From a virus, in IMG/VR virus record IMGVR_UViG_3300044799_000904, positions 1 through 31,494 of that record: a stretch of DNA of 31,494 nucleotides, one strand, 5' to 3'. A program made the translations under genes and the position numbers. Numbering within the stretch: the stretch's first letter is position 1; each line of letters begins with the position of its first letter. Below the pieces are notes generated by a model. That model was not told the origin of the DNA. It saw only the letters and a list, made by a program, of their open reading frames with translations, and made no database searches. Positions 8,372-29,141 of the stretch are shown one piece after another.

Positions 8372-9420
8372 GTGCCCACCCCCAATAGCGCCATAGTGCC
8401 GCCACCGTACGTGATCTCCAGGTACGGCACGCAGCCGTTGAGCTCGAAGTAGTGCCCCGCGTCCGGCGGCTCGATGTATGGCCGGTCGTAGTCCTCCTCG
8501 ATCAACCCGACGTCGAAGTCGGCCGTCGCGGCGTAGTGCTCCAGTGGGATGACGGAGGCCCACAAAGTCGGCGGACTGGTGGCCGCAAAGAGATTCATCG
8601 AGGGGCCGTCGCAGACTTCCTGCCATGTTATGAACGCCTCGAACATGCCTCCGCCCATGGTGAACGAGCACCGCATGGTCCGGACATGCTCCGGCTGCTG
8701 CTGCTCGCCCCCGCCGGACCGCTTCACGCAGAGCCGCACCGAGACGGGGGCGGGGAAGGCCGACGTGTTGAACTTAAGCGCGGTCCGCGAGACCGCGTAG
8801 TTGCCGATGTCAAGGATGGCCTGGACTTTTGCGCTTTGGTAGGTCACTTCCAGGTCATTGGGGTCGTCGCGGGCCGTCTCCCAATCGGTGCTGATACTGA
8901 ACAAATGGGCGTACAGACCGCTGGTGACAGTCGGATCGAGGTTGATAGGTCTGCCTTTGGCCAGCGCCTTCTGCTTCGCTTCCGCCAGGTCCAGCGTGAC
9001 GGCGTCGGTGGCGACGGTGCACTTGTCGCGGAACCGCAGCAGCCAGTCGTGGACGAACAAGCCCACGGGCGCGCCGGCGTCTTTGAACCGCCAGCCGCCG
9101 GGTGTCTTCTCCACGCCGTCTGAATGGGCAATGGCGAAGCCTATCGTTGCCGGCGCCTTAGCCGCGTCGAGCACAGGCCCGAACGCCAAGCCCGTCCGCC
9201 TTGACATGATGGCGGCCTTCAGTGCGGCGGGGTCGCTCGGCCGAAGCGCAATGGACTCCTTGCCGAGCCGCACCGTGTAGCTTTCGCTTGCCGGGTCGTG
9301 CTCAACAATGACCGCCTGCTCGATGGGAACAAGCACACCGTCCACATGCACCCATCGCGGGGCAGCATACAGGCGTGTGACGCGCCCGTCGGACTCGGCG
9401 TATGGGCTTACAGGCCTCAC
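8368..9420 (-). CDS. Virion-module protein of unknown function
   Basis: A protein of about 350 residues between the decoration-like protein and the tail terminator-like gene. GAGGA abuts the upstream in-frame GTG (9426) and lies 6 bases before the GTG at 9420, so I choose 9420 (VRPVSPYAESDGRVTRLY). The sequence has no signal peptide or membrane segment. It shows a helical-then-beta pattern, with long soluble beta-like runs (FVHDWLLRFRDKCTVATDAVTL; VQAILDIGNYAVSRTALKF) resembling a domain that binds a ligand or partner on the particle surface. I do not recognise a family. The gene is large for a head-tail joining protein, so a head spike or fibre is possible. Confidence 0.55.
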   Translation of the reverse strand: MRPVSPYAESDGRVTRLYAAPRWVHVDGVLVPIEQAVIVEHDPASESYTVRLGKESIALRPSDPAALKAAIMSRRTGLAFGPVLDAAKAPATIGFAIAHSDGVEKTPGGWRFKDAGAPVGLFVHDWLLRFRDKCTVATDAVTLDLAEAKQKALAKGRPINLDPTVTSGLYAHLFSISTDWETARDDPNDLEVTYQSAKVQAILDIGNYAVSRTALKFNTSAFPAPVSVRLCVKRSGGGEQQQPEHVRTMRCSFTMGGGMFEAFITWQEVCDGPSMNLFAATSPPTLWASVIPLEHYAATADFDVGLIEEDYDRPYIEPPDAGHYFELNGCVPYLEITYGGGTMALLGVGT

Positions 9421-15228: not shown

Positions 15229-15420
15229 TCATTTCTCCTGCTCCACCGTGGTCATCCGTTGCCCACAGTTGCGGCACTCGCGCCGTCGGACGAGCTTGCC
15301 GCCCGAGGTCCGACGCGTGTACACGACGTAGAAGTGCCGGCAGCCGCATCGCCGACACGCTAGGCCGAGCGTGGACGGTTCAGGCGACCAGGACTTCCGC
15401 TGTCCCGCGATCTCGGCCAT
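15229..15420 (-). CDS. NrdR-like zinc-ribbon protein
   Basis: A 63-residue protein consisting almost only of a zinc ribbon: CRRCGCRHFYVVYTRR, then KLVRRRECRNCGQRMTTVE. The C-x2-C...C-x2-C spacing, the TR, the RRRxC and the C-terminal TTVE strongly resemble the N-terminal zinc ribbon of the NrdR repressor; the ATP-cone that completes NrdR is missing. Such stand-alone ribbons occur in phage genomes and probably bind DNA. ATG at 15418-15420 is chosen over the ATG six bases upstream because GGAGG then has an 8-base spacing. It overlaps the terminase stop codon (ATGA). Confidence 0.65.
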   Translation of the reverse strand: MAEIAGQRKSWSPEPSTLGLACRRCGCRHFYVVYTRRTSGGKLVRRRECRNCGQRMTTVEQEK

Positions 15421-17705
15421 CACCATTTCCTCCGCAGGTCTTCCTGCGTATAGCGTTTCCTCTGCCGTTGCGGCGTGCTCTCGCCCGGGGATTTCACGCC
15501 GATCATGCTGGCCGCAGCGGCGCAGCCAACCAGACAGTCGAACCAGTGGTTGTCCGGCCGCGTCGGCCACGGCGACCACTCGCGGACCACGCCGCCGGGG
15601 CCGATGACCTCGACCCACTTCTCCGACCGGGCCACGTGCTCGGCGATCAGTTCGTGCTGGCGCACGTCCTTTGCGAACAGGCTGATGCAGCCTCGGTCGC
15701 CGGCTGCGGTCATCAGCCCTTCATGCACGAACCGCTTCCAGTAGTTCACGTCCACCAGGACGTGCGGGAACTGCCCCGTCTTGCGGACGTTGGGGATGTA
15801 CCAGTAATGCCCGATGGTCTCGCCGGGCCTGCGGGCGTACTCGGCGATGGGCTTACGGCTGGCGCGGATACCCACGCCCTTGGACAGCATCATGACAGCG
15901 CCGCCAGCCTTGTGTTTCACGTCGGCGACGATGCCGGGCTTGTACCCCATGTCCACCAGGAGACGGTCGATCCGCATCAGGCTTCCGCCCCGGCTCCAGT
16001 CCCGGCCCAGATACGCCGAGACGAGCCGCTCCAGCCCCGCGTGAATGGCCCCATCCACGCCCGCGCCGGGGAAGGTCCGTCCCAGCGTCCGCGTGGCGTC
16101 GGCCAGTGTGAACGCCGAGCGGCGCTGCTCGGGGAACGTGCCGTAATCGATGACGTATCCGGTGAACGTCTCCTCCCAGGCGCAGACGGCGTAGAACAGC
16201 AGCCGGTCGTGCACGTCGATGAACATGGTGAGCTTCGTGCAGGCCGGCGGCACCTCGCCGCGCTTGTAGCCGCTCGTCTTCTGGCAGACCTGCTCGACGG
16301 TGAGGACCTGGTCGCTGGTCTGCGGGAGCGCCGGCTCGTTCTGGTACTCGGCGGCGAAGGCCTCCGGGCCGACCTTCAGTTTCAGGTTCATGGCGTGCTG
16401 GAGGGCGCTGATCTCCCCGGACTTTTCGTCGAACCGTTGCGGCCACGCGATCTTCGCCCCCTCGTCCATCGCCGCCTGGCGCTGGCGGTAGAACTCCGTC
16501 GCGGCGGCCTTGCCCTGGCTACGCCGAATCTCCGCGTAATCCTCCCAGAGCTTCTCGTCGGCCGGGAAGGCGCAGACCAGGGCGGTGCACTCGCTGTCCC
16601 ACTCCGGGTACCTCTCCCGGTCCAGCACGGTGTCGGCCAGGTCGCCCTCATACATCTTCGTGCAGGTCATCAACGCGGAGATCTGCTCGCCGGGACCGGC
16701 CATGCCCAGCACGTCGCCATTCAGGAGCTCCAGGCGCTTCCTCGTCTGGTCCACCGAGCGGGCCGACTCCCGCGTCTGCGGGTCGTCCAGGAGCACCAGT
16801 GACGGCCGGATGATCGAGCCGTCCACGCGGCTGTGCTGCTGGCCGCGCATGTTCGCGTCCAGGCTCGTCGTCGTGATGATCGAGCCGCAAGACGGACTGG
16901 CGTCGTAGCCGTCCTGCCGCAGCGCCGCCGGCAGGTCCTCTCCCGAAAAACCCTCGACGGTCGGGAAGACCAGCTTGTTCTGGCCCCAGTGGACGTGCGT
17001 CAGCCGCCCGCGGCAGTGCTGCTGGAGCTGGCGCTTGGAGGAGTTCTCCAGGCACCGCAGCGGATAGACGGCCTCGGGGAAGTCGGCCAGCAACAGCGGG
17101 TTCTCCAGGGCGTGCTTCCTGATCGGCAGCAGCAGCTCCTTGGCGCGGTCGTCGGCGGCCCCGATCAGGCAGACGAACGGCCTGTAGCCGTAGAGTATCG
17201 CCCAAAGCCCCGAGCACCGCGCCAGCGTGGTCTTGCCCGACCCGCGCGGCATGGCAAAGGCGAACAGACCGCCTTCCCGGACGGCCTTCTCGATCTTGGC
17301 GATCACACGAAGATGGTCCTCCGACCACGGCCGGTAGAATGCCGCCGGGAAGTATGTCTCGCAGAACAGCCGAAAGGACGCCCCGCAGTCCTTGCGGCGC
17401 GGATAGTCCTCGACCTCCGGGATCGGGTAGATGTCCTGGCTGGCCTTGGTGGCCGCACGGTTCTTCTCGGCCTGGCGACGGCGGGCCTCGACATAGTCCA
17501 CCTTCACCGGACGGGGCTTGTCCAATTCCCCGACCAGCCACCGGGCGTAGCGGACCAGATGGATGTGCGTGCCGTCCCCGAAGCGGAAGGCCCCGGCGTC
17601 CATCTGGCGGCGCAGGCGCGAGCGGGTCAGCGCCTCGCCCAGCGGAGTGGCGTTGACGAGCTGGAGCAACTCGCTCTGAGTCAGTTGGGTGAGGTCAATC
17701 GCCAT
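15420..17705 (-). CDS. Terminase large subunit with extra N-terminal small-terminase-like domain
   Basis: A 761-residue packaging ATPase/nuclease. The Walker A is at residues 151-160 (AMPRGSGKTT), Walker B near 303-309 (LVLLDDP) with following T-R-E, and the nuclease aspartate at about 497 (MFIDVHD), with a further acidic site later around DMGYKPG. It cuts and pumps phage DNA into the prohead through the portal. Residues 1-62 are an additional domain: LTQSELLQLVN ... DGTHIHLVRYARWL. The same DGT-x3-LV-YA-WL pattern occurs in the 86-residue protein encoded just upstream. The C-terminus is basic (RQRKRYTQEDLRRKW). The gene overlaps its upstream neighbour by 11 bases and the zinc-ribbon gene by one. 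Confidence 0.9.
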   Translation of the reverse strand: MAIDLTQLTQSELLQLVNATPLGEALTRSRLRRQMDAGAFRFGDGTHIHLVRYARWLVGELDKPRPVKVDYVEARRRQAEKNRAATKASQDIYPIPEVEDYPRRKDCGASFRLFCETYFPAAFYRPWSEDHLRVIAKIEKAVREGGLFAFAMPRGSGKTTLARCSGLWAILYGYRPFVCLIGAADDRAKELLLPIRKHALENPLLLADFPEAVYPLRCLENSSKRQLQQHCRGRLTHVHWGQNKLVFPTVEGFSGEDLPAALRQDGYDASPSCGSIITTTSLDANMRGQQHSRVDGSIIRPSLVLLDDPQTRESARSVDQTRKRLELLNGDVLGMAGPGEQISALMTCTKMYEGDLADTVLDRERYPEWDSECTALVCAFPADEKLWEDYAEIRRSQGKAAATEFYRQRQAAMDEGAKIAWPQRFDEKSGEISALQHAMNLKLKVGPEAFAAEYQNEPALPQTSDQVLTVEQVCQKTSGYKRGEVPPACTKLTMFIDVHDRLLFYAVCAWEETFTGYVIDYGTFPEQRRSAFTLADATRTLGRTFPGAGVDGAIHAGLERLVSAYLGRDWSRGGSLMRIDRLLVDMGYKPGIVADVKHKAGGAVMMLSKGVGIRASRKPIAEYARRPGETIGHYWYIPNVRKTGQFPHVLVDVNYWKRFVHEGLMTAAGDRGCISLFAKDVRQHELIAEHVARSEKWVEVIGPGGVVREWSPWPTRPDNHWFDCLVGCAAAASMIGVKSPGESTPQRQRKRYTQEDLRRKW

Positions 17706-19861: not shown

Positions 19862-20683
19862 CTACGATCCCCCAACCACCCCGGCCTGCTCGGCCGGGGT
19901 TCTCTCTCCCGAAGCGTTCGCCGCGACCCTTTCGGCCTTCTTCCCGGTGAACTTCTCCCATCGCTGGACGATCACGTCGCAGTAGAGCGGGTCGATCTCC
20001 ATCAGGAACGCACGGCGGCTGGTCTGCTCGCAGGCGATCAGCGTGCTGCCGGAGCCCCCGAAGAGGTCCAGCACGACCTGTCCAGTCCGCGAGGAGTTGG
20101 TAACGGCACGCGCGACCAGCTCGACGGGCTTCATGGTCGGGTGGTCGTCGCTGACGCGGGGGCGGGCGATCTCCCACACGTCGTCCAGATCCCGCCGGTC
20201 GCAGAACGAGGATTCCCCCTTCGTGTGCCAGCCGTACCAGAGCGGCTCGTACCGGCGGTGGTACTTGCTCCGGCCCAGGACGAAGAGATCCTTGACCCAG
20301 ATCACCGTGGCCGACCAGTGGAACCCGCAGTCACGAAGGACCGCGTCCAGGCGCGGCCACTCCGAGGCGCCGAGGATACAGTACACGTCGCCCGTCACGA
20401 CGGCCGGGACCCGCGTGATCCAGGATTCCAGGAACGCCTGGTACTCCGCCGGGGAGAGATCGTCGTTCTGCAGACCCGGTCGTTGCCGGTGCCTGGGGTT
20501 CGCGTCGCCCCCGATGGCGACGTTCCACGGGGGGTCGGTGAACAGCATGGTCGCCTTCTGGCCCTCCATCAGCGTCGTCAGATCGGCGCCCTTCGTGGAA
20601 TCCCCGCAGAGCAGCCGATGCCGCGATTCCACGGGCGCCTCGAACTGGCTTCCGCATCGCCGGCACAGGCACTGGCGATTCAT
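19862..20683 (-). CDS. DNA methyltransferase, beta class (DPPW), with N-terminal zinc knuckle
   Basis: A 273-residue protein. ATG at 20681-20683 is chosen because GGAGG lies upstream and the ATG overlaps the stop codon of the previous methyltransferase. The N-terminus has CLCRRCGSQF, then HRLLCGDST, the usual entry to phage/ParB-linked methylases. Motif IV is FTDPPWN (near residue 70) and the SAM-binding motif I is LDLFGGSGSTLIA (near 215-227), so the order IV-then-I is of the beta class. It would methylate adenine N6 or cytosine N4 in a sequence not deducible here. It is last of the ParB-methylase-methylase chain. Its coding end contains a hairpin that may act as terminator for the plus-strand genes. 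Confidence 0.85.
   Translation of the reverse strand: MNRQCLCRRCGSQFEAPVESRHRLLCGDSTKGADLTTLMEGQKATMLFTDPPWNVAIGGDANPRHRQRPGLQNDDLSPAEYQAFLESWITRVPAVVTGDVYCILGASEWPRLDAVLRDCGFHWSATVIWVKDLFVLGRSKYHRRYEPLWYGWHTKGESSFCDRRDLDDVWEIARPRVSDDHPTMKPVELVARAVTNSSRTGQVVLDLFGGSGSTLIACEQTSRRAFLMEIDPLYCDVIVQRWEKFTGKKAERVAANASGERTPAEQAGVVGGS
19879..19908 (+). terminator. Hairpin ending the plus-strand block
   Basis: A perfect 8-bp stem ccccggcc/ggccgggg with a 5-base loop begins 26 bases after the stop codon of the HARE-HTH gene and is followed by ttctctctc on the plus strand. It lies inside the last codons of the convergent methyltransferase gene. The T-content is modest, so efficiency is uncertain. Confidence 0.5.
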
Positions 20684-21528
20684 GGCCTTGCCTCCGGCTC
20701 GATTGAACTCGCCGAAATCCGAACGGCCTTCCGGCCGGTGAAGTTCTCCCACCGCTGGACCGCGACATCCACGTAGAGAGGCTCGAGTTCGATCCCGAAG
20801 CACCGCCTTCCGAGCTGCTCGGCCGCGATGAGGGTCGTGCCGGAGCCCAGGAACGGCTCCAGGACCACGGACCCCGGCGGCGTGAAGTGGGTGAGAGCCC
20901 AGATCGCCAGATGGACCGGCATGGTCGCCGCATGCTCTTGGGATGCGATGTTTTCGCCGGAGGCCCCGGGGCCGCCGTAGACGTTGCTCACGGTGCCGTG
21001 GAATTGGGCGGTCTCAATCGCTCGGGATGCCTCCTCGGCCGGCGAGAAGACAACGAGTAGCTCGAACCGGGAGTTCATGACCTTCCGGGCCATGGCGGGC
21101 TGCCCTCCGCCCTTACACCAGACGGCCAGGTCGGCCAAGTGGGTCGCGTTGTCCGCCATCCACCGCAGGACCACCCGCTTGTTCCCGGCGAGGAGCTGGA
21201 TGTTCACCATCAGCACGCGGCAGTGCGCCAGCGCCTGGGTGAAGAAGCCATCCAGGAGCTGGCGGTACTCCTCCGGCGTGCGGCTATCGCTGTCGTGGAT
21301 GTACTTGCTGTCGACCCGGCTGGCATTGCCCCCGAGGGCGTTGTTGCCGGCGTTGTACGGCGGCGACGTGAAGCCCAGATCCGCCTTCTGGCCATTCATC
21401 ACCCGCGCCACGTCGGCCGCGCTAGTACTGTCGCCGCAGAGAACACGATGCCGGGATTGGACCGGGGCATCGAAGGGCTTGCCGCACTTCTTGCAGGTGC
21501 AGGCCTGCCTGTCCGGTAGGCAGGTCAT
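20680..21528 (-). CDS. DNA methyltransferase, beta class (TSPPY), with palindromic insertion in its start
   Basis: A 282-residue methyltransferase. It opens MTC then LPDRQACTC then KKCGKPFDAPVQSRHRVLCGDST. Motif IV is GFTSPPYNAG (near residue 53) and motif I is EPFLGSGTTLIAAEQ (near 238), a beta-class arrangement typical of N4-cytosine or N6-adenine enzymes. The nine residues LPDRQACTC are encoded by a 27-bp insertion that carries a palindrome and splits a C-x-x-C zinc knuckle. The ATG overlaps the ParB-like gene stop codon (ATGA), and its own stop overlaps the next methyltransferase start. It is paralogous in layout to that neighbour but clearly diverged. Confidence 0.85.
   Translation of the reverse strand: MTCLPDRQACTCKKCGKPFDAPVQSRHRVLCGDSTSAADVARVMNGQKADLGFTSPPYNAGNNALGGNASRVDSKYIHDSDSRTPEEYRQLLDGFFTQALAHCRVLMVNIQLLAGNKRVVLRWMADNATHLADLAVWCKGGGQPAMARKVMNSRFELLVVFSPAEEASRAIETAQFHGTVSNVYGGPGASGENIASQEHAATMPVHLAIWALTHFTPPGSVVLEPFLGSGTTLIAAEQLGRRCFGIELEPLYVDVAVQRWENFTGRKAVRISASSIEPEARP
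21493..21525. repeat. 27-bp palindromic insertion flanked by 6-bp direct repeats
   Basis: On the plus strand gcaggt occurs at 21493-21498 and again at 21520-21525, exactly 27 bases apart. Between them lie 21 bases containing the inverted pair cctgcc/ggcagg. Removing one unit leaves the methyltransferase in frame and restores the start MTCKKCGKPF, which matches the architecture of the sister gene (MNRQCLCRRCG). It therefore looks like a recent in-frame insertion with target duplication. Confidence 0.6.
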
Positions 21529-22052
21529 ATCGGGTTCTCTTCGCCGCAGTGCGGGCACTTGACGTAGGCACCGAGCAGCCACAGGTCGCCCGGCTTGGTG
21601 ATGGCCTCATCCGGGAGCATCGGCACCTCGTCGGGATCGGTGAGGCCAGCTTGGACACCCCCGTCCAGCAGCTTGGCCAGTTCCTTCTCGTCGAATCCGA
21701 GCAGGGACAGGTCGAAGTCGGCCGCCTGGAGGTCCTTCAGCTCGATGGGCAACAGCTCGTAGTTCCACTCCGACAGCGTCGCGGTCTGGTTGTCCGCAAG
21801 GCGGTAGGCGCGAACCTGCTCGGGGGAGAGGTCGCGGGCTACGTGGACCGGCACCTTCGCCAGCCCGAGCTTCTTCGCCGCCTTCCACCGCGTGTGGCCG
21901 ACGATGATGACGCCGTCGGGGTCCACCACGATGGGCTGGCGGAAGCCGAACTCCCGCAAACTGGTCGCCACCGCGTCCACGGCCTGGTCATTCTGACGCG
22001 GGTTGCTCTCGTAGGGTCGGATGTCGTCGATGTTCCGCAGCTCGATGTCCAT
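21525..22052 (-). CDS. ParB-like protein linked to DNA methyltransferases
   Basis: A 175-residue protein with a ParB N-terminal domain: LRNIDDIRPYESNPRQND, then EFGFRQPIVVDPDGVIIVGHTRWKAAKKLGL (the GHTRW-A-K box), VPVHVARDLSPEQVRAYRLADNQTA. The C-terminus reads TKPGDLWLLGAYVKCPHCGEENPI. In many phages TKPGDLWLLG leads straight into HRLLCGDST of a fused methyltransferase; here the chain stops and the methylase follows as a separate gene with an ATGA overlap. The terminal C-x2-C could pair with the C-x2-C at the start of the methylase. The ParB fold here probably binds or nicks DNA and guides the methylase; a partition role is unlikely because no ParA is present. GGAG lies 8 bases before the ATG. 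Confidence 0.85.
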   Translation of the reverse strand: MDIELRNIDDIRPYESNPRQNDQAVDAVATSLREFGFRQPIVVDPDGVIIVGHTRWKAAKKLGLAKVPVHVARDLSPEQVRAYRLADNQTATLSEWNYELLPIELKDLQAADFDLSLLGFDEKELAKLLDGGVQAGLTDPDEVPMLPDEAITKPGDLWLLGAYVKCPHCGEENPI

Positions 22053-22053
22053 G

Positions 22054-22260
22054 TCACGTTCTCCAGGGGTTCACGTCGTCGCGTACAGCGCCCGTCGCTG
22101 CTCTCGATATGTCCTTATCCCTGCTGTGCTTGCCGCCGTGTGCGCCGCCGGAACAAACAAAAAGGATGTTCCCGACTGTTCCCGCCGCGGTCTTCCGCAT
22201 GGGTCGCCGGGAAGGAACCATTCGCGCCTTGCCCACCTTGCCCATCTTGATTCCGCTCAT
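22054..22260 (-). CDS. Small basic hypothetical protein
   Basis: A 68-residue, highly basic protein (MSGIKMGKVGKARMVPSRRP, MRKTAAGTVGNILFVCSGG). It lies between the Cys-rich gene, whose stop codon it overlaps (ATGA), and the ParB-like gene, one base away. No domain is recognised. It is kept because its start overlap and the tight packing fit the operon pattern. Composition suggests nucleic-acid binding; the function is unknown. Confidence 0.4.
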   Translation of the reverse strand: MSGIKMGKVGKARMVPSRRPMRKTAAGTVGNILFVCSGGAHGGKHSRDKDISRAATGAVRDDVNPWRT

Positions 22261-22643
22261 ATCAGCACCTCGTCCTCGTCCGGTTGCCCGACCTCTGGTG
22301 CGATCGTCGAACCTGCGCCAACCTGCGCCGCCTGGGGCGCTACCCTTGGCCACAACCACACGTCCTTGCTGATCTGCGGGCCGTGGTAGCACGCGCAGTA
22401 GTGCCATGCGTCGGGCGGCGGGTCGCACTGGCGCTTGCCCGTCGCCCAGACGACCGACGTGCCGCCGATGTACTCCGAGCAGAAGTAGTCCCCGCCGACC
22501 TTGGAGAAGTTGCGGCAGTCCATGCAGCGGCAGTGCTTCAGGACAACCGCGTCCGGGGGCAAAGGCATACTCGGGCGCTGCACCGGCCGCAGAGCGGTGG
22601 GGCCTGCCAGGGCCAGCAACCTGGTGACGTTGGTCAGTCCCAT
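22257..22643 (-). CDS. Cys-rich (zinc-binding) phage protein
   Basis: A 128-residue protein with seven Cys between residues 38 and 85: HCRCMDCRNFSKVGGDYFC, then KRQCDPPPDAWHYCACYHG. This dense Cys/His pattern implies one or two zinc sites. Flanks are Pro/Ala-rich and probably flexible; the C-terminus is acidic (EVGQPDEDEVLI). Small Cys-rich proteins of this kind are often present near phage replication genes, but I know no function. The ATG overlaps the end of the upstream gene by ten bases. Confidence 0.6.
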   Translation of the reverse strand: MGLTNVTRLLALAGPTALRPVQRPSMPLPPDAVVLKHCRCMDCRNFSKVGGDYFCSEYIGGTSVVWATGKRQCDPPPDAWHYCACYHGPQISKDVWLWPRVAPQAAQVGAGSTIAPEVGQPDEDEVLI

Positions 22644-23203
22644 ATCCGCACCCCATAGATGAGCTTCCTGAGCAGGTCGAGCATCTTGCGCGGCGATTCC
22701 CGTAGCGAACGCCAGCGATCCCAGTCCTCTCGGCGTAGCGAGACATCCTCCGGCTTGGCGTGCATGAAGGCGTCCGACTTGGCGATCCGCAGAACCGCCA
22801 GTCTCCAGGAGTCCACCGGATCGTCGGGCGGCAGCGCCAGGCGATCAGCGATGGCGTAGATGTCCTCTTTGCTTACCAGGGACGTCCAGAGCGACATCGC
22901 AGGGTGCCGGCCGCTCAGCGGGGGAGCCTGGGGAGAATCGGAGGTATCCTTAGCCGTATCCAACCTTCGGTTCACACGCGCAGCGCCTGCGCATGTGTGA
23001 AGCTGTGAGGAATTCTCCTTTTTCTCCCTGGAATCTCGCAAGGCGTTGCTATTGCTGGTGCTTGTGCGAGGGAGAATGGCGTTTTGATTCTCCCTGATTC
23101 TCCGCGATTCTCCCTGGCCCAGGGAGGAAAGGGAGAATCGGGAGAATCTTGCGGCCTCCGATTCAGCCCATGCGCGCCAAGATATGTTGCGTACGCGGCT
23201 CAT
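22634..23203 (-). CDS. Replication-region protein whose gene carries an origin-like repeat array
   Basis: A 189-residue protein encoded directly after the primase-helicase with an ATGA overlap. Residues 1-100 are low-complexity, basic and Ser/Arg/Asn-rich (RFSRFSLSSLGQGESRRIRENQN) because they are coded by DNA repeats. Residues about 105-189 are a folded helical domain (SLVSKEDIYAIADRLALPPDDPVDSWRLAVLRIA; EDVSLRREDWDRWRSLRESPRKMLDLLRKL). The arrangement, DNA repeats inside a gene next to replication enzymes, recalls lambda O, where the origin lies within the initiator gene. The protein itself is not recognisably an O-type initiator. It may bind the repeats or interact with the helicase; both are inference. 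Confidence 0.6.
   Translation of the reverse strand: MSRVRNISWRAWAESEAARFSRFSLSSLGQGESRRIRENQNAILPRTSTSNSNALRDSREKKENSSQLHTCAGAARVNRRLDTAKDTSDSPQAPPLSGRHPAMSLWTSLVSKEDIYAIADRLALPPDDPVDSWRLAVLRIAKSDAFMHAKPEDVSLRREDWDRWRSLRESPRKMLDLLRKLIYGVRIWD
22931..23148. repeat. Origin-like array: iterated gggagaatc sites plus large dyad
   Basis: The 8-9 base word gattctcc(c) or its complement occurs about eight times: 22931-22939, 23012-23018 (partial), 23070-23077 (partial), 23086-23094, 23096-23103, 23106-23114, 23131-23139 and 23140-23148. Three same-sense copies are spaced exactly 10 bases apart, one helical turn, then two inverted copies 9 apart. A dyad at 22971-23001 (ttcacac + gcgcag paired with ctgcgc + gtgtgaa, with a 2-base bulge and 3-base loop) sits on the other side of an AT-richer stretch with ttctcctttttctcc. 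Together this resembles an iteron-type replication origin. Confidence 0.55.
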
Positions 23204-25542
23204 CTGATCTCCTGGAGGTGGTACTTAGTGTGGTTGCTCGCGCCGCAGCGACGGATGTACCACGAGCCGACCGGGGTATCGGTGTGACGCGAGAGCATTC
23301 GTCCGAAGGCTACGCTGACCGCCTCCTCGGTCCGCTTGGCGAATATGTGCTGGAAGAAGTTGCAGTCTTTGGCCAGTTGACGAAGCTGCTTAGGATCAGC
23401 TTCTCCGACGCCAAAGGCCTGGTGCCAGGCGCTCACGAACGCCTCCATGTCTTCGCCCCTGCTGTCCGCGCGCTTCCGCCAATCGACTTCATTCGTCCGC
23501 CAGGCTCGCAGGCCGTTGACCTGGAGGATGCCGCCGATGGTCTGCGACCAGTTCTCAAAGCCGCCGAGTCGGTTGGGATGGCTGGGCTTGCCGGCCGCCA
23601 GCCAGTTCTCCACCAGCCCCAGCAGGCACTCCAGGACCAGCCGGCGGCGTTGACGGACATAGGCGCGGATGTCGGGGTGCTGGAAGTCTGTCCGAGCTTC
23701 GGGGTTCGCCGAGGTCGGCTCGATCATGATGGGCACGACGCGCTTGGCGATCTCGCCGGAGGCCTGGACGTTGTTGCCGCTGCCGACGATGGTGAGGTTG
23801 TTGGGTAGCGAGACGTTCCGCGAGAAGCCCAGGATTCTCCCCAGGAAGCACTGGGTCGTCAGCAGGCTGGACAGGGCGGGCGAGTCAATATAGGCGGGCA
23901 GATTGTCCAGGTGCATGAGCGTCTCGCCCTGGAGCAGCATCGCCAGGATGCGCTTCTCGCGCTCCTCCTCGCGGTCGGTGATCTGCATCGAGGGCGTGTC
24001 GCGGCCAGTGATGACGCCGCCAAAGACCTCGTTGACCAGCTTGCTCTTACCGGTCCGCTCCAGCGGCGCGTTGAGCAGGTGCATGGGCCTATTGCCGTCG
24101 ATGGCGGGCGCGACGATGGGCGTGAGCAAGAGGCCGAAGAAGTTCTCCCGGTCTGCCTGTGTCTTGAACGGGAAGTCCACGACCAGATCGTGCAGGACGT
24201 TGTGGATGACTTCGCAGTCAGTCTCGGCCGTCAGCTCGTGGAGGTCGTCCGGCTCGTCGTAGTACAGACCATCGTGCCATCCAGGCTCGACCCGCCGGAA
24301 GCCCGGGCCATAGACCGGGTATGAGACCATCAGGTGCGGGTCGCGAAGGCCGGCGGCGCTGGAGGCGTGGGCGACGACCAGGCCGGCCGAGTCCTTATTG
24401 CAGGCCTGGTACAGCAGCACCTGTTCCTTGGTCTTGCGGCAGGTGACCCACTTGCCGAGCTTGACGTAGCTGTCTACCAGGATGCGCATCCGGTCCGGTG
24501 CGAACTCCACCCATTTGCGCCTTCCCTTCGGGCCGATGATCTCACCGGGGATGAAGTCGCGGCGATAGATGGCGTCCTCAGGCAACCGCGAGAGTACCTC
24601 TTTGGCAAACTGGGCGCTGGACTGCTCGACGTGGTTGCCCTGGTCGTCCTTGTGTGGCCCAGGCGTCAGGATGTAGTCGCCCAGATCGTCGTCGCCATCA
24701 CCAGACGTTGCTGGCAAAGGCTTAAGGTCGACGTGGCGGGGGTGTTGCATGCCGGCTTCCAGTCCCGAGTGGATTGTCGTATCCAGCTCCCGCGGCTGGA
24801 GGCCGACTGACTCGCCTGCGGCCATCAAGGCCTGCTCGACCTCAACGCGGTCCAGGTAGCCGCCGCCGATGAGTGTGCCCAGGCTGAACGCGGCCTTGTT
24901 GAGCGTCTCGTTGCGACTGCCCTCCGTGGCCGTGCAGACGGCGTGCAGCTCCAGCTTCATCGCCGTCTGGGCATAGTGGCGGGCCTTGGCGGGCACGTTG
25001 CCGGTGTGCACAACAGGCGCGGCGGGTGCGGCCTTGGACTCCGGCTTCTCCGGTGCCCGCAGCTGCTCCAGTATGTGCGCCGGTAGCGGGGTGATCTCGA
25101 CATTCCAGGGTTCATGGCCCTCGGCCCAGGTGTAGAGCGCGCCGGTCTCAGGATGCACCGAGCCGGGGAAGACCACCTGGCCGCCGTCGGCCTTGACGTC
25201 GATGTGCGGGCCAAGCCTGCCCGTGGAGTTGCCCAGCGGCGTTCCATTCAGCCGGTAGTAGAAGTGTACGCCATTGCCGCCGGTGTTCACGGTCACGGTG
25301 CGGGGCAGGCCCAGCCCGCTGATATCTGCACCTTGATCGACGTCGATGATGACCACGCCGCTCGCCCTTCCGGTGCGCAGGCCGACGTTGCCTTGGGTGG
25401 CCCAAGCCAGGGCCTCCTGGAGCGTCTCGCGTGGGCGGTCCTGCCAACCCTTCAAGGTCGGCCGCTTGCCGGCCAGGGGCGTAAACGACCAGCCCAGCCC
25501 GTGGCCGTACTCGATGCTCACGGAAAGAAGGTTGTCACTCAT
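23200..25542 (-). CDS. Bifunctional primase-polymerase/helicase
   Basis: A 780-residue replication protein. The N-terminal domain (about 1-165) is a primase-polymerase: LGWSFTPLAGKRPTLKGWQ, VGLRTGRASGVVIIDVD with catalytic Asp pair at 67-69, TGGNGVHFYYR, and HIDVKADGGQVVFPGSVH. A linker and a middle domain follow (PriCT-like around 195-260). The C-terminal half is a P-loop domain with Walker A at 492-501 (APLERTGKSK) and Walker B at about 542-548 (LMHLDNL), as in superfamily 3/D5-like phage helicases. It probably primes and unwinds at the phage origin. ATG at 25540-25542 was chosen since it overlaps the nuclease gene end by 8 bases and begins the conserved domain; upstream sequence in frame is nuclease shadow. 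Confidence 0.85.
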   Translation of the reverse strand: MSDNLLSVSIEYGHGLGWSFTPLAGKRPTLKGWQDRPRETLQEALAWATQGNVGLRTGRASGVVIIDVDQGADISGLGLPRTVTVNTGGNGVHFYYRLNGTPLGNSTGRLGPHIDVKADGGQVVFPGSVHPETGALYTWAEGHEPWNVEITPLPAHILEQLRAPEKPESKAAPAAPVVHTGNVPAKARHYAQTAMKLELHAVCTATEGSRNETLNKAAFSLGTLIGGGYLDRVEVEQALMAAGESVGLQPRELDTTIHSGLEAGMQHPRHVDLKPLPATSGDGDDDLGDYILTPGPHKDDQGNHVEQSSAQFAKEVLSRLPEDAIYRRDFIPGEIIGPKGRRKWVEFAPDRMRILVDSYVKLGKWVTCRKTKEQVLLYQACNKDSAGLVVAHASSAAGLRDPHLMVSYPVYGPGFRRVEPGWHDGLYYDEPDDLHELTAETDCEVIHNVLHDLVVDFPFKTQADRENFFGLLLTPIVAPAIDGNRPMHLLNAPLERTGKSKLVNEVFGGVITGRDTPSMQITDREEEREKRILAMLLQGETLMHLDNLPAYIDSPALSSLLTTQCFLGRILGFSRNVSLPNNLTIVGSGNNVQASGEIAKRVVPIMIEPTSANPEARTDFQHPDIRAYVRQRRRLVLECLLGLVENWLAAGKPSHPNRLGGFENWSQTIGGILQVNGLRAWRTNEVDWRKRADSRGEDMEAFVSAWHQAFGVGEADPKQLRQLAKDCNFFQHIFAKRTEEAVSVAFGRMLSRHTDTPVGSWYIRRCGASNHTKYHLQEIR

Positions 25543-25906
25543 GGGCGTCTGCACCCTCGATTGCCCTCTGTACGTCTTCCACGCCCCACGCCAGGACGTA
25601 GAGGCCGTGGCGCTTTCGGATCTCCTGCTCCATCTGCTTCTGCGATGGTGACTGCCTGCCACCGGTGGCCTTACACTCGACCCCCAGAAAGCGTCCATCG
25701 GGCAGCAGGCCGGTGACGTCCGGCCAACCGGCGGGCAGGCTCTCGCCGAAGAACGCCCCGGCCTTGTAGGCGGCCCCGGCGTCCGTGACGGCAACCAGGC
25801 AGTTGCGGGCGCGGAGGTAGGCGACGACGGCTTTCTGGACGGCCCGCTCGGGCTTGCCTCGCCTGCGGCGCGGAGGGGCGAAGACGTCGGATGTGCGTAG
25901 GCTCAT
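25535..25906 (-). CDS. VRR-NUC-type nuclease
   Basis: A 123-residue nuclease of the PD-(D/E)xK superfamily: RAVQKAVVAYLRARNCLVAVTDAGA, then GWPDVTGLLPDGRFLGVECKA (catalytic Asp, Glu-x-Lys) and SQKQMEQEIRKRHGLYVLA. The VRR-NUC family cleaves branched or flap DNA and is common in phage replication modules as a resolvase-like enzyme. The ATG at 25904-25906 overlaps the stop codon of the gene before it (ATGA), supporting this start over an upstream ATG. The N-terminus is basic (PPRRRRGKPER). Confidence 0.85.
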   Translation of the reverse strand: MSLRTSDVFAPPRRRRGKPERAVQKAVVAYLRARNCLVAVTDAGAAYKAGAFFGESLPAGWPDVTGLLPDGRFLGVECKATGGRQSPSQKQMEQEIRKRHGLYVLAWGVEDVQRAIEGADAHE

Positions 25907-27385: not shown

Positions 27386-28201
27386 CTAGGCCTTGGCGGC
27401 CAGCAGACGGTTCCAGAGGGTGGTGTCGAACTGAACGAGTTCCAGCGGGTCGGCCAACGTGCGGCTCTTGGCCATGCACCAGGGCATCTCTTGAGGGTAG
27501 ATGGTCCGCGTGCCCTGGCCCTGGGCCTTGCCGTTGTGCTGCTTGGTGCACTCGATGTCGTAGCCGACGTAGAGCAGGTGATCGAGCCACTCGCGGAGGC
27601 GCAGGCGGACGGAGGCCTTGCCGCTGGAGGGGTTCTGGAGCCGCGGTTCCCAGCGGATGTAGTCCTCGCCCCTGGGATTGGGCACGGTGGCCGTGCAGTC
27701 GTGGCAGATCAGGATCACGTGCCGGCCGGCACGGACGTGGGCGTCGAGGTCGCCCAGCAGCGGCAAGAACGTTTCGTAGACGTGCTGCCAGCCCTTGCCG
27801 AAGCCGTAGTCCTCGATGCGGTGGATGACGACGCCGTCCTTCTCGTGGCGGACGTTCTTGAGCGTCCAGTCCAGGGCCAGTTCCTCGGCCTTGGTCGCCG
27901 AGTCAATTACGATGGTGCGGACGTCCTCCCAGCCGCCGGAGTGCAGGGCGTCGCGGATGTCTTGCCAGGAAGCGATCCCGGCCACGCGGCGAACGTCCAG
28001 CTTCCCCAGCGACGGCAGCAAGATCGGCAGGCTGTCGTCCAGGTCGATGACACCCACCGGCCCCGGCGCGGTGGCCGCCAGCGTCGTCTTGCCAATCCCG
28101 CCGGGGCCGAAAAGGCCCACGCGGTGGCCTTGTGGCTCGATCTTGCCGAACGAGACCCGCCGGACAGGCGGGGAGAAGGCCGAACGAGTGGGACTCGTCA
28201 T
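27386..28201 (-). CDS. Sak4/RecA-like phage recombinase ATPase (AAA_24)
   Basis: A 271-residue P-loop ATPase. Walker A is LFGPGGIGKTTLAA (about 30-43), followed by VGVIDLDDSLPILLP and TIVIDSATKAEELALDW as Walker B (about 95-101). FGKGWQHVYETFLPLLGDLD and VILICHDCTATVPNP follow, typical of AAA_24/Sak4-type proteins. These act in phage homologous recombination with an SSB-like partner, here encoded next. ATG overlaps the previous stop codon (ATGA). Confidence 0.85.
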   Translation of the reverse strand: MTSPTRSAFSPPVRRVSFGKIEPQGHRVGLFGPGGIGKTTLAATAPGPVGVIDLDDSLPILLPSLGKLDVRRVAGIASWQDIRDALHSGGWEDVRTIVIDSATKAEELALDWTLKNVRHEKDGVVIHRIEDYGFGKGWQHVYETFLPLLGDLDAHVRAGRHVILICHDCTATVPNPRGEDYIRWEPRLQNPSSGKASVRLRLREWLDHLLYVGYDIECTKQHNGKAQGQGTRTIYPQEMPWCMAKSRTLADPLELVQFDTTLWNRLLAAKA

Positions 28202-28482
28202 GATCGCACCTCCTGTCCCAGCGGCCGAACGACAAAGGCCGCCGAGCCGAACTCCTTGGCAACGAAGGCCGTGAAGATGCCCGCCACGGCCTGCCCCACC
28301 TTGGTGCTGGCGTCGACGATGACGGCACGAAGTGCCTTGTCGACGGAGTACGCGCCGTCCATCCTGACCCGCGCCTGTCCGTACAGGCCTTCCGTCGCCA
28401 GGATGGACAGCAGCAACGTCTCATCGGCCTCATGAAGGTCGACGCCCTCGTCGAACCTGTAGCGATATGCGTCCTCGTTCAT
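28198..28482 (-). CDS. Small hypothetical protein between sigma factor and recombinase
   Basis: A 94-residue protein: MNEDAYRYRFDEGVDLHEADETLLLSILATEGLYGQARVRMDGAYSV is the N-terminal region (acidic, with LLLSILATEGLYG), then KALRAVIVDASTKVGQAVAGIFTAFVAKEFG. It has no membrane segment strong enough to call, although the latter run is hydrophobic. Linked by ATGA overlaps to both neighbours. I recognise no family; its place suggests a role in early gene expression or recombination. Confidence 0.6.
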   Translation of the reverse strand: MNEDAYRYRFDEGVDLHEADETLLLSILATEGLYGQARVRMDGAYSVDKALRAVIVDASTKVGQAVAGIFTAFVAKEFGSAAFVVRPLGQEVRS

Positions 28483-29141
28483 TCGTGGCCCTTTCGATGG
28501 TTGCCTATTGGGTCAGTTATGCTGTCCGCGCGCGAGGCTGTCCGGGCGGGGTCAGATTCCGACAAGGCCCGACTGCCAAAAGTGCCCCGGAGCTCGTCGA
28601 TGGCCTTGCGGACCTGCCGCCGGGACATCCGCAGGTCGCGGGCGATGGAGGCCTCGCAGCCGTCGTTCATGAGCAGTTGGGCGACCTGGCGAAGGCGGGG
28701 CGATAGGCGCTCCAGGGCGTCGGCCAGGTCGATCCGTGCGTCCTGCTGGCGCTGGTCAGGGACGCCCTGCCCGCCGTGGTGCCGGTGGAGGTCGTCCTCC
28801 ACGAGCCGGTCCAGCAGGGAGAGCTCCTCCCCCTCGTTCAGCAGGGCGCTGCCCTCCAGCGACTGGACCTGGAGTCCCGCGCCCCGCTTGAACCGCCCGC
28901 GGCTGCGACACATGATCGCGGCGGCGGTGTCGACCACGACCGTGATGAAGGCGACGACGTGCCCGCGCTTCGGGTCGAACAGGTGGGCCTTCTGGACGAC
29001 GTGGAGCGCGAGTTCCTGCTGGACCTCCTCAAGCTCCACCCCGTGGAACTCCGGCCGGCGAAGGAGCTGGCGGGCCTTGAACTTGATGAGGTTGCTGATG
29101 CAATCCGACGTGAGTGCCGCGCGAACCGTCTCGATGGACAT
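28479..29141 (-). CDS. Sigma-70-family (ECF-like) sigma factor
   Basis: A 220-residue protein. Residues about 1-75 resemble sigma region 2 (LIKFKARQLLRRPEFHGVELEEVQQELALHV and FDPKRGHVVAFITVVVD). Residues about 145-190 are region 4 with a helix-turn-helix: LSPRLRQVAQLLMNDGCEASIARDLRMSRRQVRKAIDELR, shown here as its key part ASIARDLRMSRRQVRKAI. The length and two-region layout fit an ECF-type factor. A phage sigma factor would redirect host RNA polymerase to phage promoters, perhaps the late or replication genes. The start codon is preceded by GGAGG 5 bases upstream, but that site is buried in a perfect hairpin, so translation may be controlled. Confidence 0.8.
   Translation of the reverse strand: MSIETVRAALTSDCISNLIKFKARQLLRRPEFHGVELEEVQQELALHVVQKAHLFDPKRGHVVAFITVVVDTAAAIMCRSRGRFKRGAGLQVQSLEGSALLNEGEELSLLDRLVEDDLHRHHGGQGVPDQRQQDARIDLADALERLSPRLRQVAQLLMNDGCEASIARDLRMSRRQVRKAIDELRGTFGSRALSESDPARTASRADSITDPIGNHRKGHE

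Follow-up and report, generated by a model that had tools for sequence, protein, structure and literature searches.

A probable iteron-type replication origin within coding DNA downstream of the fused primase-helicase gene of a tailed phage

The window analyzed here is the entire IMG/VR record, 31,494 bp, and carries the genes of a tailed phage, among them those for terminase, portal, head protease/major head and tape-measure proteins. A cluster of short repeats (iterons) lies in an open reading frame between a gene for a putative replication initiator and a small conserved gene. The genes and domains needed to follow the analysis are listed here by window position.

15420-17705: terminase large subunit gene, in the same gene run as the iteron cluster
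22257-22643, minus strand: small cysteine-rich protein (VLKHCRCMDC...CDPPPDAWHYC...HGPQISKDVW), the conserved next gene after the ORF with the candidate origin
22634-23203, minus strand: 189-aa ORF containing the candidate origin, its start overlapping the initiator stop (ATGA)
23200-25542, minus strand: gene for a fused primase-polymerase/AAA+ helicase-like initiator of about 780 aa, with its ATG at 25542 and its stop at 23200-23202
23203-23457, minus strand: C-terminal winged-helix domain of the initiator (residues 697-781), predicted to read the iterons on the basis of AF2, VIA and co-variation

The gene for the cysteine-rich protein, which is possibly zinc-binding, comes after the origin region in most relatives and is fused as the C-terminal part of the origin ORF in several. 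At 19862-22052 (minus strand) lie the gene for a ParB-like protein and, after it, those for two DNA methyltransferases of the N6/N4 type. The ParB-like protein belongs to the phage ParB/methyltransferase group, encoded beside DNA methylases, and its gene is about 1 kb downstream of the repeats. Upstream of the initiator are genes for a Sak4-like annealing/AAA protein and a sigma-70-like protein (27386-28201 and 28479-29141, minus strand).

The N-terminal domain of the initiator was identified as Prim-Pol PF09250 (Pfam, E 8.6e-27), and the protein also matches DNA polymerase/primase families in PHROG. No helicase model in Pfam matched the initiator; its middle portion contains a Walker A-like motif (LERTGKSKL) and a Walker B-like motif (LMHLDNL), read from the sequence, which suggest a helicase role. 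Residues are numbered from window base 25545. An AF2 model of a 141-aa fragment containing the tail reached a pLDDT of about 91 over fragment residues 61-141, with elements in the order H-H-h-H-E-E, a winged-helix topology; a full-length AF2 model of the initiator was of low confidence and was set aside. Structural alignment with VIA related the tail to winged-helix domains at Z 6-8, a general similarity at the level of the fold only. Foldseek searches with the tail gave nothing significant, the P4 origin-binding domain was absent among the matches listed by Foldseek and VIA, and PDB sequence searches with the tail and the whole protein returned no credible match.

The repeat cluster lies directly after the primase-helicase gene, as an earlier note on this DNA had described, with the start of the ORF that hosts it overlapping the stop of that gene. 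Its elements, from the initiator side onward, are the following.

23140-23148, plus strand: iteron copy, exact GGGAGAATC, outer pair
23131-23139, plus strand: iteron copy, exact GGGAGAATC, outer pair
23106-23114, minus strand: iteron R1, exact
23096-23104, minus strand: iteron R2, one mismatch (CGGAGAATC)
23086-23094, minus strand: iteron R3, exact; R1 to R3 are phased at 10 bp
23070-23078, plus strand: iteron R4, inverted, one mismatch, 16 bp past R3
23020-23028, minus strand: iteron R5, degenerate (GGGAGAAAA), its position kept in relatives
23011-23019, minus strand: iteron R6, degenerate (AGGAGAATT), abutting R5
22971-23001, no strand: core, an imperfect dyad of two alternating purine-pyrimidine tracts (22973-22982 and 22988-22999)
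22931-22939, plus strand: iteron R7, exact, inverted relative to R5 and R6, on the far side of the core

Within 22931-23148 there are five exact copies of GGGAGAATC/GATTCTCCC (22931, 23086, 23106, 23131 and 23140) and two copies with one mismatch (23070 and 23096); the degenerate copies at 23020 and 23011 bring the total to about eight to ten, and one more exact copy is found outside the cluster at 23833. This agrees with the earlier count of about eight copies of gggagaatc/gattctccc in 220 bases, and the described spacing was also recovered, with the copies at 23086, 23096 and 23106 phased at exactly 10 bp and followed by inverted copies at 23131 and 23140, 9 bp apart. The 8-mer GGAGAATC occurs seven times in the window against 0.9 expected, a number reached in none of 100 shuffles, and among 9-mer clusters in the 420 bp past the primase stop the best has eight copies (shuffle mean 3.0, maximum 4). 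When the whole 31.5 kb was scanned for repeated 9-mers, the iteron stretch ranked first among 400-bp stretches. Searches against Rfam gave sub-threshold matches only; the PK-repBA match at 23028-23147 on the minus strand (24.6 bits, cut-off 45) is probably due to chance.

The dyad in the core reads TTCACAC-GCGCA / TGCGC-AT-GTGTGAA. A dyad had been noted here as a 13-bp element; it exists, but is imperfect, with 12 bp and a 2-nt bulge, and its alternating tracts are short (10 and 12 bp). An AT-richer stretch had also been pointed out, and A+T is indeed raised near the iterons, but mildly, at 46-50% compared to about 34% over the window as a whole. The conserved core is GC-rich, and no strong AT-rich unwinding element was found at the origin. 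The cumulative GC skew of the window, one of the proposed checks, has its minimum at 22,817 (range p approximately 0.016, block shuffle), but the relatives are inconsistent: no change is seen at the origin in L006, L007, L008 and L021, and only rough agreement in L004, which makes the skew weak as evidence for an origin.

Homologues of the initiator with 54-76% identity were found in viral contigs (IMG/VR) and in Planctomycetota metagenome-assembled genomes; two of these loci, L015 and L016, lie in contigs of 323 and 152 kb and are therefore probably Planctomycetota prophages. The earlier note had stated that absence of the repeats from close relatives would refute an origin. Clusters are present there: at 14 of the first 15 loci a 9-bp repeat cluster stands directly 3' of the initiator stop, each above 100 of 100 shuffles. 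What is kept is position and geometry, whereas the exact repeat sequence varies. At the exception, L009, ACGAGGTCG iterons follow an inserted ORF, which indicates that the origin can be displaced from the initiator gene. This ORF, of 222 aa, occupies 8176-8842 of L009, between the initiator gene and the iteron cluster (8899-9162). The iteron GGGAGAATC is shared by the window, L003-L005, L007 and L010 (group A), and CAGAGGTTG by L006, L011, L013-L015, L017 and L020 (group B). Other iterons are GGGAGACTC in L044, CGGAGTCTG in L018, TGGAGTCTG in L021, CGGATATTC in L008, CCGAGGTTG in L016 and TATAGGTCG in L012, and more distant loci have CCGCAACCT, CGCAACCTT, CGGAACCTT, TCCTTGCAA, CGCCCAACC and ATTACCATC.

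These different repeats are set in a common layout: three direct copies in steps of 9-10 bp, an inverted copy 13-17 bp past the third, then, about 50 bp further on, a pair of direct copies spaced at 9 bp, the core, and two inverted copies. The window matches this layout, with R5 and R6 degenerate. In the case of L012, the first iteron block is in the opposite orientation. Additional iteron blocks are seen outside the common layout in L005 (8424-8560, before it) and L021 (7746-7790, after it), which suggests block duplication. Some relatives in a more distant subfamily have no iterons downstream of the initiator. A search with exact tandem iteron patterns for orphan clusters or satellites with the same address matched family members only, apart from an unrelated two-copy match in L114.

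The core could be aligned in 18 loci and consists of TTACRCGTGCGCRGGCGC-like sequence followed by alternating purine-pyrimidine DNA, located between the inner iterons. The longest alternating run of the whole locus falls in the core at 15 of 17 loci, reaching 29 bp, and longer core tracts occur in L088 (58 bp), L087 (43 bp) and L111 (31 bp). The 58-bp tract of L088 is perfect and lies 125-182 bases past the initiator stop, between iteron blocks. Alternating runs of at least 18 bp number 11 in 303 kb, nine of them in origins of this family and two elsewhere; the latter are at L055:11068-11085 and L060:4881-4901. Such tracts may be able to adopt the Z-DNA form.

Comparison of iterons with initiator proteins across 20 loci revealed that iteron distance correlates with the distance between tails (the last ~85 residues; r=0.73) and hardly with that between the remaining parts of the protein (0.13). 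The partial Mantel correlation of iteron and tail was 0.74, with none of 5000 permutations reaching it, and after dereplication to 13 loci the correlations were 0.55 for the tail and -0.03 for the body. Association of alignment columns with the iterons rises from 0.02 at residues 600-690 to 0.35 at 761-781, and the top-associated columns (722, 743-745, 749 and 766-773) map to the predicted winged helix, in its recognition helix and its wing. Arg or Gln at residue 743 goes with GGT in the iteron at 18 of 20 loci, compared to GGT at 1 of 11 loci without these residues, the loci not being phylogenetically independent.

Two loci appear as mosaics within this series. In the case of L007, all segments of residues 1-690 are nearer to group B (for example, 0.97 to B and 0.77 to A at residues 346-414), whereas the last 85 residues are nearer to group A and the iterons are those of group A. 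L017 is the reciprocal mosaic; its body is mostly nearer to A, with A and B close near residues 484-552 and 622-690, its tail is nearer to B (0.69 vs 0.39 to A), and its iterons are those of group B. For the body, a tree with either iteron group as a clade is rejected (p-AU 1e-67 and 1e-43), whereas in the tree of the tail group B is a supported clade and group A is not rejected. Outside the iterons, the origin DNA of L007 and L010 displays only a slight lean toward B (0.65 vs 0.59 and 0.54 vs 0.50, respectively), which is not decisive.

Several known replication systems resemble the window to differing degrees. Lambda iterons lie within the initiator gene O itself, and the earlier note had drawn the analogy with lambda. 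Both systems have iterons inside coding DNA, but the analogy is wrong in kind: the iterons of the window are in the ORF that follows the initiator gene, the placement of the origin in SaPIs, pWTY27 and pRN1, and the window's initiator is itself the primase-helicase. Replication of P4 uses a second site, crr, whereas one cluster was found in the window. The P4 alpha protein, as cited in PMC4234260, combines priming, unwinding and iteron binding in one polypeptide whose C-terminal domain is a winged helix. A single polypeptide for all three roles is also what is proposed for the initiator here, which differs in having the Prim-Pol domain PF09250 where alpha has a TOPRIM primase. ORF904 of pRN1 has a primpol, an SF3 and a winged-helix domain, and a stem-loop origin without iterons lies directly downstream of its gene (PMC4234260). 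The window shares with it Prim-Pol, helicase (in the window by motif only), a C-terminal winged helix (in the window predicted) and the placement of the candidate origin immediately downstream, but has iterons, and pairing in its core is not selected beyond alternation. SaPI Rep and SCCmec Cch2 are self-loading initiator helicases in which the C-terminal domain binds to iterons placed just past the gene (PMC7581432); they share with the window the iterons directly 3' of an initiator helicase gene and differ in belonging to Firmicute satellites and cassettes.

The closest comparison is with the Streptomyces plasmid pWTY27, whose RepA binds GTGGGAAC iterons directly downstream of its own gene; the locus requires repA, repB (a primpol) and the iteron region, and replication is bidirectional (PMC3583192). 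RepA and the initiator are homologous in both helicase and tail (hhalign E 3e-24 and 1.5e-12; approximately 28% identity), and the pWTY27 iterons were recovered at the same place in the plasmid's own sequence (L070). Like the window, pWTY27 has a primpol adjacent to the helicase, iterons of both orientations just past the helicase gene, and short alternating tracts in the middle of the origin. It differs in being a plasmid, in its iteron (GTGGGAAC), in having a non-coding origin, and in that RepB primpol and RepA helicase are separate proteins, whereas the window has one fused ORF. Clusters are also present in pCM32, a Streptomyces NBC_01335 plasmid, an Azospirillum plasmid and a Methanosarcinales virus. 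The working mode closest to that of the window is that of pWTY27, SaPI and P4, an iteron origin with its own initiator; the origin is not of the lambda type, not P4 by membership and not strictly of the pRN1 type.

The cluster combines multiple short repeats, fixed spacing and an adjacent initiator gene, as expected of an iteron origin. We interpret it as the probable replication origin of the phage, with the fused primpol/helicase upstream as initiator and its winged-helix tail binding GGGAGAATC, at a probability of roughly 0.87. Both origin activity and, in the window phage, iteron binding by the tail are predicted from sequence, the latter also by analogy with the homologue. An iteron-type origin inside a coding gene, as first suggested in the earlier note, remains the best-supported reading, as the geometry recurs, the tail co-varies with the iterons and the homologue binds iterons.

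Other readings of the same DNA can be set against this one. That the repeats are a coding repeat under protein-level selection, or a chance low-complexity stretch, might be argued from the frame over the origin, which is open in nearly all relatives and is not broken by 9-bp units. The low-complexity part of the 189-aa ORF coincides with the iterons, a separate conserved domain (SLWTSLVSKEDIYAIADRL...) extends from about 22897 down, and searches with the protein found no relatives in phages or viral contigs. (The extra domain, at about 22634-22897 between the origin and the cysteine-rich gene, is shared by the window, L004 and L005 and lacking in L003.) Differences within group A are spread over codon positions 1/2/3 as 44/34/39 in the origin part, compared to 21/12/44 in the next domain, a pattern which agrees in groups A and B but is weaker in B. 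Substitutions in the origin part are thus blind to codon position, which argues that the constraint there is on DNA rather than on protein, as had been supposed. Furthermore, the encoded peptide is wholly different between relatives (RIREN vs AEVAEV), iteron copies occur on both strands, and in L008 the cluster has no spanning frame at all, its first copy overlapping the initiator stop codon. Protein-level selection or chance is accordingly given next to no weight. A more serious proposal, though still an unlikely one, is that the dyad is the true initiation element and the repeats are accessory, an arrangement put forward for pRN1 and phage BIP-1; the stem-loop of pRN1 lies directly downstream of the ORF904 gene, and its authors suggest the same for phages (PMC4234260). 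The window core does contain a dyad, and core folding is somewhat better than in mononucleotide shuffles in several loci. Against shuffles that preserve alternation, however, the pairing energy has a mean z of -0.07 over 18 tracts, so that alternation, and not a hairpin, is the property kept; a hairpin as the selected core feature was ruled out by this comparison. The iterons, moreover, are multi-copy, fixed in geometry and co-vary with a DNA-binding domain.

That co-variation could itself be a product of linkage, with tail DNA and iterons moving as one recombining block and another protein reading the iterons. Tail-coding DNA adjoins the iterons, as block exchange requires, and block recombination alone would yield part of the co-variation. 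However, the tails of L007 and L010 are only about 54-60% identical to those of group A, yet have identical iterons and the wing motif GxSNHx(K/R)Y in common; single iteron changes go with single tail lineages (L018/L021, L044 and L016); and the homologous RepA of pWTY27 binds the iterons downstream of its own gene. Linkage as the whole explanation is therefore rather improbable. The repeats might also be an operator or a centromere-like site, serving in autoregulation of the early operon or, by way of the ParB-like protein encoded nearby, in partition; iterons often serve in copy control as well, and the ParB-like gene is only about 1 kb away. This is somewhat harder still to maintain, since that protein is of the phage group encoded beside methylases, the variable partner of the repeats is the winged-helix-bearing initiator tail, and a site 3' of the initiator gene is no promoter position. 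Repeat clusters mark packaging (pac/cos) sites in some phages, and the large-subunit terminase gene belongs to the same gene run, so that the repeats could be read by a terminase subunit. The terminase gene is over 5 kb away, the repeats invariably accompany the initiator, and a homologous arrangement is found on the plasmids pWTY27, pCM32 and Streptomyces NBC_01335, which leaves packaging a very slim chance.

For the preferred reading, an iteron origin with its own initiator, the following course of events is proposed. The C-terminal winged helix of the initiator would bind the 9-bp iterons GGGAGAATC, and with R1-R4 and R5-R6 on one side of the core and R7 on the other, in opposite orientations, two initiator oligomers would be loaded. 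Strand opening or restructuring would start at the alternating purine-pyrimidine core (22971-23001), and the same initiator polypeptides would then unwind and prime. The core would be the constant part, and iteron and winged helix an exchangeable lock-and-key by which the origins of related phages are kept separate. As a general and still speculative model, origins of this family may be modular, with a constant Z-DNA-prone core, rather than an AT-rich element, opened by the helicase, and a co-evolving iteron and tail as exchangeable address.

An initiator helicase with an iteron origin downstream is an already known kind of system. What is new is a single phage family in which the same enzyme body is combined with at least ten iteron sequences in a fixed layout, with tails changing in step; also new are the two reciprocal mosaics (L007 and L017) within this series and the alternating core. 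The matched series of iterons and tails makes the evolution of origin specificity and recognition by winged helices directly testable. A conserved GC-rich alternating core of up to 58 bp, with no obvious AT-rich element, likewise makes it testable whether Z-DNA-prone sequence has a part in initiation. The layout is also a simple signature by which origins can be located in Prim-Pol plasmids and in phages of Planctomycetota that are uncultured. If the modular model is true, the at least ten natural iteron types with their matching tails would constitute a readable code of protein-DNA recognition, and left-handed DNA would play a positive part when replication is initiated.
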